A stretch of DNA of 64,000 bases from contig NZ_SJKB01000002.1 of assembly GCF_004331465.1 (NCBI RefSeq), positions 186,001-250,000 of the forward strand. The letters are read 5' to 3'. Below the pieces are notes generated by a model, which had not been told where the DNA came from, ran no database searches, and was given only the letters and a program-made list of their open reading frames with translations. The translations under genes were made by a program, and so were the position numbers. How positions within the stretch are numbered: the stretch's first letter is position 1; every line of letters begins with the position of its first letter. Source of the stretch: Kribbella pittospori. Lineage in GTDB: Bacteria > Actinomycetota > Actinomycetes > Propionibacteriales > Kribbellaceae. Below are positions 19,573 through 22,708 of this stretch, piece by piece.

Positions 19573-20784
19573 TCAGAAGCCCGTATCGAGCCACGGAAGC
19601 CGGCTCGTGGAAAACGCTTGCGCCGCGGCCCCGAGCGCCCCGGCCGTGTGCTCCTGCGCCAGCCCGGCCGCACCGAGCCGGACGAACGACGGCTTGCCGA
19701 GGTAGACCGAGGCCAGATCGCGCACGTCGACGGTGAGATCGGCCGGCCGGGTGGTCGACTCGCAGGTCGCCCCGGCCGGACCGCCGGCGAGGTGCCACTT
19801 GCCCGCGTTCCAGGGCAGGAATCCGTCGGTCACCTCGAGGACGACATCGATGTCGCGGGCGTATGTCCGGGCCGCAAGCGCCGGGGCCAGGTCGACGAAC
19901 CGCAGCCAGAGACCGTCGCGGGTGATCGGCGACGGCGCCCGCTGGTCGACCAGCAGGTCCAGCAGCGGGTCGTCCGACGGCAGCGCCTCGTACCGCGTCT
20001 CGCTCAGCAGGTCCGGCTCCAGCAGGTAGCGCCAGAGCGCGGCATGCGAGGCCAGGTCGACAGCATGCACGCGCCGTACCTCGACGAACCCCTTGTCGGC
20101 GCGCTTCGTCCGGTAGTGCGCGAACCCGGTCAGCTCGCCGTCCCGCTCGGCCAGCACGCAGCGCAGCGCGGAGGCGTTGGACGGGTCGACCATCACGTTG
20201 TCGCTGACAACCAGCTCCTGCCACCGGTCGTTGTGCTCGAACATGCCGACCCGCTCGGTCGCCAGCTTGTTGCGCAGCGCCGCGGTCTCGGCCAGCGTCT
20301 CGCGCACCCCGACGTACCTGATCCGTACGTCGTCGATGCCGGCGACCGGCCGCAGTTCGCGAGCGGGCTTCGGTACGACGATCTCCTGGTGGTCGCTGGC
20401 GAGGCCGTACCCGAACCTGCCGTAGATCACCGCCTCGCTCGCGGTCAGTCCGGCGAGCGGCTCGGTCCCGGCCTCGTGGATCTCGTTCAGCTGAGCCCGC
20501 ATCAGGTCGCGCAGGATGCCGCGCCGGCGATGCGTCGCACGGACCCCGACCATGGTCACCCCGGCCATCGGCACCTGTGCGCCCGGCACAGTCATCAGGT
20601 GCGAGAACGCCGCTGTGTGGCCGACCAGTTGCTTCTCGTCGATCGCGACGATGCTCCGGTCCGGCTCCCAGACCTTCCGCTCCGCCTCCAGCTGCGCATC
20701 ACTCCACGGCGCCGAGAACGCCACGTCGATGAGCTCCAGGAGCTCGCCCCACTCACCCTCGAACCGCCCGATCTCGATCGCCAT
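19573..20784 (-). CDS. GNAT family N-acetyltransferase, Eis-like
   Basis: The 403-residue protein has the Eis layout: an N-terminal GNAT domain, a second GNAT-like domain, and a C-terminal SCP2-like region. The acetyl-CoA loop reads V-R-A-T-H-R-R-R-G-I-L-R-D-L-M (about 82-96), and A-V-I-Y-G-R-F-G-Y-G-L-A follows. The protein ends in ...D-T-G-F; in Mycobacterium Eis the C-terminal phenylalanine carboxylate acts in catalysis, so the terminal Phe is meaningful. Eis-type enzymes acetylate amines, including aminoglycosides, at several positions. A GTG start 3 codons upstream (20793) is possible. Substrate here is unknown. Confidence 0.88.
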   Translation of the reverse strand: MAIEIGRFEGEWGELLELIDVAFSAPWSDAQLEAERKVWEPDRSIVAIDEKQLVGHTAAFSHLMTVPGAQVPMAGVTMVGVRATHRRRGILRDLMRAQLNEIHEAGTEPLAGLTASEAVIYGRFGYGLASDHQEIVVPKPARELRPVAGIDDVRIRYVGVRETLAETAALRNKLATERVGMFEHNDRWQELVVSDNVMVDPSNASALRCVLAERDGELTGFAHYRTKRADKGFVEVRRVHAVDLASHAALWRYLLEPDLLSETRYEALPSDDPLLDLLVDQRAPSPITRDGLWLRFVDLAPALAARTYARDIDVVLEVTDGFLPWNAGKWHLAGGPAGATCESTTRPADLTVDVRDLASVYLGKPSFVRLGAAGLAQEHTAGALGAAAQAFSTSRLPWLDTGF

Positions 20785-20894
20785 GCCCAACACCTACCAG
20801 ACCCCAAGAACCACCGCGCCACGATTTGCCCTGCGAAAACTCGGCAGGGCCGGGAATTTCCCGTGCTGACAGGAAAGTCGGGCGACTCCCGGTC

Positions 20895-20923
20895 TGGACT
20901 GATGAAAATCGTTTTCATATACT
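20895..20923 (+). promoter_or_regulatory. Zur box inside the promoter of the CobW-like gene
   Basis: TGGACT (20895-20900) and TATACT (20918-20923) are separated by exactly 17 bp and form a good sigma-70-type promoter. The spacer is occupied by ATGAAAATCGTTTTCAT (20902-20918), with seven-base arms ATGAAAA/TTTTCAT around a TCG centre. This closely resembles the actinobacterial Zur operator consensus (TGAAAATnATTTTCA). Zur with zinc would block RNA polymerase directly here. The -10 ends 6 bp before the ATG at 20930, so the transcript is probably leaderless. Confidence 0.85.
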
Positions 20924-20929
20924 TGAGGG

Positions 20930-22003
20930 ATGACCGCCCACTCGAAGACGCCGTTGTCCCTGCTGGTCGGGCTTTCCACGACACTGCGGGAACCTGTGCT
21001 GGACGCGATGCTCGACACCACCAGCGTGGTCGTGGTGGTCGACCAGGACGAGTTGCGCGAGCGGGGTGTGCTGTCCTGGCGTGTGCTGGACGCGTCCGGG
21101 CGGATCGACGCCGGCGAGTTCACCGTCGGGGACGACTGTGGGGCGTGTCAGCTGATCGAGTCGCTGCTGCCGTTGCTCGAGGCCCTGGTCGCACGGCAGC
21201 GCTGGGATCACGTCGTACTGGCGGCTCCGCCGGCGATGGAGGCACGACCGCTCGTAGGCTCACTGGTCGCGGGGTTGCCGGAGATCGCCGTCGACACGAT
21301 CACCTGTGTGGTCGACGCCGTACTGCTGGTCGAGCAACTGTCCGGTGACGAGCTCCTCGACGAGCGCGGTCTCGCACTCGGGCTGCCGGACCGCCGCAAC
21401 GTCGCCGAGCTCACCGCGCGGCAGATCGAGTACGCCGACGTGTGCGTGCTCGCCAACCTGCACCGCAACGCAGCGCCGGATCGACTGCACAACCTGCTGC
21501 TGCACCTGAACCCGCGGACAACCGTCGTCGTGGCGGACCGAGTCGGCGTACCGGACGGGCCGGTGGCGCGGACCGGGCTGTTCGACTTCGACGCGGCCGA
21601 GGCGTGGGCCGGCGAGCTGGCGTCTTCGGATCGGGTCCAACCGAGTGGTGACGGCGTGACGACCGTGCTCTGGCGGTCCACGCGGCCGATGCATCCGTCG
21701 CGGTTGAACGACGCGCTCGAGGACATCGTGAACGGCGTCGTCCGCAGCCGTGGCGTGGTCTGGCTGGCGAACCGGCCGACGCAGCGCGTGCGGTGGGAGT
21801 CCGCCGGGTACAGCGCGTCGCTCGGCATGCTCGGCGAGTGGTCGGACAGCGAGCACCTGGCCGAGTGCACGGTGGTTGCGACCGGCATGGGTCTGGATCC
21901 GGCCCGGCTGCAGTCGATCCTCGACGCGTGCCTGCTGACCGAGTCCGAGCTCGCCTGCCTGGACTGGCACGACCTTGACGACCCGTTCGCGGGTCTGCTG
22001 TAA
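20930..22003 (+). CDS. CobW/G3E-like protein lacking the GTPase motifs, Zur-regulated
   Basis: The 357-residue protein follows the CobW plan: an N-terminal Rossmann-like half and a C-terminal CobW domain (about 225-345, with R-S-R-G-V-V-W-L-A-N-R and G-E-W). The nucleotide motifs are gone. The P-loop position reads V-G-L-S-T-T-L-R-E (13-21), without GxGKT. The family zinc motif CxCC is C-G-A-C (70-73). The switch region reads L-A-A-P-P-A-M-E, and the NKxD position reads L-A-N-L-H-R. Regulation by a Zur box points to zinc starvation. G3E proteins at such boxes are thought to deliver or spare zinc. If GTPase activity is absent, it could be a scaffold or chaperone. The assignment is from pattern, not search. 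Confidence 0.8.
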   Translation: MTAHSKTPLSLLVGLSTTLREPVLDAMLDTTSVVVVVDQDELRERGVLSWRVLDASGRIDAGEFTVGDDCGACQLIESLLPLLEALVARQRWDHVVLAAPPAMEARPLVGSLVAGLPEIAVDTITCVVDAVLLVEQLSGDELLDERGLALGLPDRRNVAELTARQIEYADVCVLANLHRNAAPDRLHNLLLHLNPRTTVVVADRVGVPDGPVARTGLFDFDAAEAWAGELASSDRVQPSGDGVTTVLWRSTRPMHPSRLNDALEDIVNGVVRSRGVVWLANRPTQRVRWESAGYSASLGMLGEWSDSEHLAECTVVATGMGLDPARLQSILDACLLTESELACLDWHDLDDPFAGLL

Positions 22004-22708
22004 CTAACCCAGCAGCGGCAGGCGGTCCGCATGTGGACCGAGCATGTCCAGATCATCCTCGTCCAGCGGCACCCGGCCCGTCGCCTTCAGGATGTACGTC
22101 GTCGTGTCCCAGCCGATCAGGTCCCACGCCTCCGGGCCGAACAGCCCGTCCAGCGTCCGCGCGGTGACCTGCAGCGCCTCCGGATCTGGCTCGGGCGCAT
22201 CCGGCAGACCAACGGTCAGGTCGAGATGGTGGACCGTTGCCTCCAGCACCAACGTGGCCACGAAGTCCGTCGCCCGCAGTACGTGACCCTGCGTCTCGAT
22301 CCGCCGCCCCTTGTCCGCCAGCCCGGCCGCAGCCGCGCGTACGGCGGCCTCGGACACCTCGCGCCAATGCTGCACGAGCATCCCCGGCCGCCGGTACGAC
22401 GAGGCTACGCCGCGGACGAAGCTCGTATCCGGATTGTCGCCGTCCATCCCCGCCGGGAAGTCCTGCCAGTACGTGACGAAATCCCGGTCCGGCCCGACCA
22501 CGGCCGGGCTCGCGAAGGCGATCAGCGCGCGCTCGGCGTCGTACAGCAGATGGACCAGCAGCGGCCCGACCGGCATCCCCGGGCATCTGGTCGCGAGCCC
22601 GAAGTCGGCGTCGCTCAGCCCCTGGACGACCTCCGTCAACCGCCCGTACTCCCGGCCCAGCGTCGCCGCCAGCCCCAGCGGCAACGCCCCTCGCTCGGGT
22701 GCTTTCAT
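22004..22708 (-). CDS. Maleylpyruvate isomerase family (MDMPI/DinB-like) mycothiol-dependent enzyme
   Basis: The 234-residue protein is a helical MDMPI/DinB-type protein: an N-terminal bundle with T-R-C-P-G-M-P-V-G-P-L-L-V-H-L-L (about 39-54), a histidine in A-T-V-H-H-L-D-L-T-V (near 165), and a small C-terminal domain. The three-histidine DinB metal site is plausible from these. Such proteins bind a divalent metal and often use mycothiol, which fits an actinobacterium. The stops of this gene and the convergent CobW-like gene abut (22003/22004). Reaction unknown. Confidence 0.85.
   Translation of the reverse strand: MKAPERGALPLGLAATLGREYGRLTEVVQGLSDADFGLATRCPGMPVGPLLVHLLYDAERALIAFASPAVVGPDRDFVTYWQDFPAGMDGDNPDTSFVRGVASSYRRPGMLVQHWREVSEAAVRAAAAGLADKGRRIETQGHVLRATDFVATLVLEATVHHLDLTVGLPDAPEPDPEALQVTARTLDGLFGPEAWDLIGWDTTTYILKATGRVPLDEDDLDMLGPHADRLPLLG

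Follow-up and report, generated by a model that had tools for sequence, protein, structure and literature searches.

The window analysed here, a stretch of 64,000 nucleotides from Kribbella pittospori (contig NZ_SJKB01000002.1), raises the question of what a CobW-like protein might do in zinc starvation when its gene lies behind a Zur-type operator and the encoded protein has lost the motifs of a GTPase. The initial annotation proposed a new kind of protein, either a zinc metallochaperone or a regulator of active G3E proteins. These proposals were evaluated from the promoter, the predicted fold, the conservation of the gene and its place among actinobacterial CobW proteins.

Promoter and operator

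The initial annotation placed the feature at 20895-22003. The end of this interval was correct; position 20895 belongs to the -35 hexamer, and the open reading frame starts at 20930 (Table 1). The promoter hexamers, TGGACT (20895-20900) and TATACT (20918-20923), flank a 17-bp spacer. Shuffling the sequence of 20780-22120 yielded 0.0 ± 0.2 sigma-70-type matches, as compared to one in the real sequence. The operator, TGAAAATCGTTTTCA, occupies the final 15 bases of the spacer. Both of its half-sites are perfect, such that the palindrome is better than the near-perfect one first described. At a threshold of three or fewer mismatches it is the sole Zur-type box in the window (0.06 expected), and the exact box occurs once in the 9.49-Mb genome. 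A Zur box within the promoter is what would be expected of a Zur regulon member.

Table 1. Features of the window gene and its promoter
Feature	Position	Strand	Basis or comment
Promoter, TGGACT-17-TATACT	20895..20923	+	Sole sigma-70-type match in 20780-22120; kept in Kribbella loci
Zur-type operator, TGAAAATCGTTTTCA	20903..20917	+	Perfect palindrome inside the -35/-10 spacer
Gap between -10 and ATG, 6 bp	20924..20929	+	Varies in sequence; too short for a leader
P-loop-less CobW/COG0523-like protein, 357 aa	20930..22003	+	Pfam, alignment, YjiA-type predicted fold
Degenerate Walker A, residues 14-21, GLSTTLRE	20969..20992	+	Aligned to GFLGAGKT of P-loop homologues
CGAC, residues 70-73	21137..21148	+	Middle Cys of CxCC missing
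Degenerate NKxD, residues 175-178, ANLH	21452..21463	+	Alignment with P-loop homologues
CobW C-terminal domain, residues 244-335	21659..21934	+	Pfam PF07683

The leaderless layout noted initially was also borne out. The ATG lies 6 bp past the end of the -10 hexamer, and this gap was 6 bp in 44 reads of Kribbella-type loci and 7 bp in 6. Indeed, 50/50 locus reads had, in this order, the Zur-type box, a TATA[ACG]T hexamer, 6-7 bp that vary in sequence, and the ATG. These reads comprise 30 genomes and 20 named records, largely of the same strains, and thus represent approximately 30 distinct genomes. As judged from them, window-type loci lack a leader bearing a conserved ribosome site. Based on this arrangement, we infer that the window gene is repressed by Zur and that its translation is leaderless.

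Distribution and selection

The window gene was present in 37/38 Kribbella genomes at 80-94% identity, and no close homologue occurred elsewhere in the sampled genomes. A Kribbella-type gene was also found at 81% identity in 'Streptomyces sp. SID13031' (L208, NZ_JAAGLV010000022.1), which is probably a misnamed Kribbella. The motif layout of the protein was kept at all Kribbella loci read. The gene is solitary, with a GNAT/SCP2 protein on one side, an MDMPI_N protein on the other and no adjoining gene for a client enzyme. Genes for bL31, bL33 or bS18 were not found near window-type orthologues at any locus read.

For close pairs, dN/dS of the window gene was 0.08-0.20, which is similar to or lower than that of the second paralogue described below (0.15-0.24). 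At the orthologous loci, the hexamers were mostly TGGACT and TATACT, and the upstream flanks and the 6-bp gap varied. Because the promoter, the operator and the protein are kept while the flanks vary, and given the dN/dS values, all three are under selection.

Sequence motifs and predicted fold

The CobW layout and C-terminal CobW domain reported initially are supported by Pfam. Specifically, CobW_C (PF07683) scored 59.3 bits against a cut-off of 22, and the cobW domain scored 20.8 bits against a cut-off of 20.7. Alignment with P-loop homologues likewise upheld the loss of the P-loop, switch and NKxD motifs. The P-loop reads GLSTTLRE, the switch/Walker B stretch is 98-AAPPAME-104, in which E104 is retained, and NKxD reads ANLH. 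With respect to the features of COG0523/CobW G3E proteins, the window protein therefore has the CobW_C domain and, by prediction, the two-domain fold; it lacks the Walker A GxxxxGK[ST] and NKxD sequences. The GCxCC motif is DCGAC, in which the outer Cys residues (C70 and C73) are present and the middle one is lost, as had been noted. The only invariant columns over 103 aligned sequences were Cys70, Cys73, Asp154 and Arg156.

The AlphaFold2 model of the protein was confident (pLDDT 93.2, pTM 0.91). Its best PDB match over both domains was the E. coli protein YjiA (1nij, 4ixm; Foldseek 1e-17; Z 15.4). The rmsd of this match was high, approximately 9 Å, which suggests that the two domains are turned differently than in YjiA. 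YjiA differs from the window protein in being an active zinc-binding GTPase, and the two share 16-18% identity; a phmmer search of the PDB with the single window protein returned chance matches only. No intact Walker A was found elsewhere in the window protein, and the predicted first strand-loop-helix bears GLSTTLRE. Based on the match to YjiA and the degenerate motifs in the alignment, the fold has been kept and the nucleotide site has not.

Relationship to MRF and ZigA

The absence of a P-loop is not peculiar to this protein. Haas et al. (2009, PMC2770081) noted that in Rv0106 of Mycobacterium tuberculosis the middle Cys is missing along with both GTPase motifs. Its M. smegmatis counterpart, MSMEG_6069, is MRF (Mpy recruitment factor), a member of the Zur regulon (PMC7174638). 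According to a 2026 review, MRF recruits the hibernation protein Mpy to C- ribosomes, and zinc-bound MRF is turned over by Clp (PMC13418864). In a class-wide search, 16 proteins scored above the NCBIfam MRF cut-off (NF047431). All 16 have the outer Cys pair and none has a Walker A (L114-L129), so the NCBIfam label 'GTPase' for MRF appears to be wrong.

Alignment of actinobacterial CobW proteins revealed a P-loop-less group. In a tree of 108 sequences, one branch splits 93 without a P-loop from 15 with one, and this split holds at 100/100 once the trait columns are excluded. Genes for bL31B, bL33 or bS18 adjoin 66/84 P-loop-less loci, the window clade excluded, versus 2/15 P-loop loci (Fisher p 2e-6, a test that treats related genomes as if they were independent). 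CobW-like proteins with a link to Zur and no P-loop are a widespread and already known actinobacterial group that includes MRF (PMC2770081), which counts against the initial suggestion of a new kind of protein.

The window protein resembles MRF in being CobW-like and, putatively, Zur-controlled; both lack the GTPase motifs, including Walker A, have CxxC in place of CxCC and share a domain layout. However, the average identity is approximately 26%, and among the genomes sampled the window protein occurs in Kribbella only. It scored 128 bits on the MRF model, for which the cut-off is 375, and its gene is not located with those of C- ribosomal proteins; based on this score and setting, the protein cannot be filed as MRF. 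Nor did it reach the ZigA cut-off (NF038288; 141 bits versus 600). The ZigA/YciC-type COG0523 GTPases share its fold, its CobW_C domain and, in several species, regulation by zinc starvation, but in them the P-loop and CxCC are intact and NKxD is usually present, and none was found in this genome.

A second paralogue in Kribbella

The genome encodes two CobW_C proteins, both without a P-loop. The second (G000:C5:81916-83010) has GINEPFRA at the P-loop, CVSC for CxCC and a score of 166 bits on the MRF model. Its gene, which we refer to as MRF-like on account of its synteny, has an upstream Zur-type box with three mismatches and lies between a divergent bL33 gene and a downstream bL31B gene. The two paralogues thus share a genome, an upstream Zur-type box, the lack of a P-loop and a CxxC, at about 31-34% identity. 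Unlike the window copy, the second lies among the genes of C- ribosomal proteins and keeps an R/H/R signature at positions 50, 68 and 76. Residues W50, D68, I76 and S78 of the window protein correspond to R, H, R and D in most P-loop-less relatives. Because it falls below the MRF cut-off and has lost these four mostly conserved residues, the window protein may act differently.

No CobW_C protein with a P-loop was found in this genome, and 34 other Kribbella genomes are likewise without any CobW_C protein beyond the window and MRF-like types. A further CobW_C protein occurs in 3/38 Kribbella genomes (L083, L085 and G006:C21:84865). Two of these three proteins were read; in both the P-loop is intact and CxCC reads CICC, and their genes have no convincing Zur box.

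Alternative explanations

The phylogeny is best read as placing the window gene in the P-loop-less group, as a genus-wide second Kribbella paralogue that is solitary and has diverged fast. The tree pairs its clade, with weak support (78/63), with the MRF-like clade of Kribbella; the stem of the window clade is approximately 1.2 changes per site. The gene could instead descend from a ZigA-like zinc GTPase that lost its P-loop independently, the likeness to the MRF group then being convergence. Consistent with this, the protein scored higher on the ZigA model than on the MRF model, its best non-Kribbella match in the class search was a P-loop protein, and grouping the clade with P-loop proteins was not rejected (AU test, p 0.33). 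Nevertheless, the P-loop-less group is favoured both by the best tree and by the sites at which the two groups differ (22:6), and the Arg that replaces the Walker A Lys is common to the window protein and 45/84 P-loop-less relatives. We therefore find independent loss improbable. Decay of the gene would account for the missing catalytic motifs, but dN/dS of approximately 0.1, a full-length open reading frame, a promoter fixed in the genus and a confidently predicted fold reduce its probability to a negligible level. Indeed, purifying selection and conservation refute a pseudogene.

The proposed zinc metallochaperone would not hydrolyse GTP; it would pass zinc to a client enzyme by means of Cys70 and Cys73 and perhaps C126, C172, C313, C334, H94, H178, H192 and H309. 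The CxxC is retained across the aligned family, several of the other Cys and His residues show little or no variation among the Kribbella sequences, the gene is solitary with no ribosomal neighbours, and ZigA and other P-loop relatives carry the annotation of zinc metallochaperone. However, the mechanism of metal transfer by COG0523 proteins is GTP-dependent, and the residues for it are gone from the window protein. Moreover, there is no client enzyme gene beside the window gene, and the sole characterised P-loop-less relative found acts in ribosome hibernation (PMC13418864). The proposal retains some merit, but we consider it unlikely. As for regulation, the protein would partner active CobW GTPases or regulate them in a dominant-negative manner. 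Control of an active relative is a common role of pseudo-enzymes, and the P-loop was intact in both of the further Kribbella CobW_C proteins that were read. Further CobW_C proteins are confined to three genomes; because this genome has no P-loop CobW_C protein, the idea has no partner here. Regulation of CobW-type G3E proteins is accordingly a very remote prospect.

Proposed role

It is highly probable that the window gene encodes a Zur-repressed, nucleotide-independent CobW pseudo-GTPase. The best explanation overall, to which we assign a probability of roughly 0.55, is that it is a Kribbella paralogue of the MRF group whose product would be a Zur-switched, nucleotide-independent adaptor in zinc starvation, with the ribosome or its hibernation as the likeliest target. 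The MRF-like adaptor role itself, drawn by analogy, has about an even chance of applying to this protein. From sequence and conservation, Zn-Zur would occupy the promoter spacer and block transcription when zinc is present; when zinc is low, Zur would depart and a leaderless mRNA would be produced. As the residues for GTP binding and hydrolysis are missing from the YjiA-type predicted fold, the protein probably works without nucleotide turnover. By analogy with MRF, Cys70 and Cys73 may sense residual zinc, such that the zinc-bound protein would be idle or degraded and the zinc-free form stable and active. Homology would point to the ribosome in its zinc-free (C-) form, or to the hibernation factor acting on it, as that target. 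The genome encodes one S30AE/HPF hibernation factor, which is a possible client.

Because this genome already has an MRF-like gene at the canonical site among ribosomal-protein genes, a related but distinct task is probable for the window copy. A bolder and more doubtful extension is that the Kribbella zinc-starvation programme employs two nucleotide-free CobW pseudo-GTPases, with the window copy rebuilt around its CxxC, at residues 50, 68, 76 and 78, for something other than recruitment of the hibernation factor. It might, for example, act on the MRF-like protein, act on HPF, or carry zinc to a new client independently of GTP. What is new here is the second, genus-specific, rebuilt paralogue; the class itself is known. 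The locus connects what was an orphan 'CobW GTPase' annotation with the many actinobacterial pseudo-GTPases that, as a group, accompany zinc-free ribosomal proteins. Labels such as 'CobW' or 'GTPase' in Zur regulons need checking. With two such paralogues, Kribbella is a soil genus in which to ask what the CobW fold does without GTP.

Other Zur-type boxes

Five Zur-type sites with two or fewer mismatches occur in the genome, the window site included. One of the others precedes a gene for the zinc-free type of S18 (rpsR2), and one has no assigned gene. A one-mismatch box lies directly upstream of a gene for an extracellular solute-binding protein, SBP_bac_5 (L004:1501-3014; G000:C3:133777), which is a candidate for a zinc or metallophore uptake system. 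Another box lies between divergent genes for znuA and a YibE/F membrane protein (L005:1501-2849; G000:C11:278676), and a Fur-family gene is located approximately 3 kb away from it. The YibE/F protein has a His-rich N-terminus, HGHGHGHGHGDH, and, from the position of the box, its gene may be Zur-controlled. Finally, MRF-like genes of other actinobacterial families (L096, L107, L111, L154 and L167) have TGAGAAC-n-TTCTCA-like palindromes, possibly a variant Zur box.
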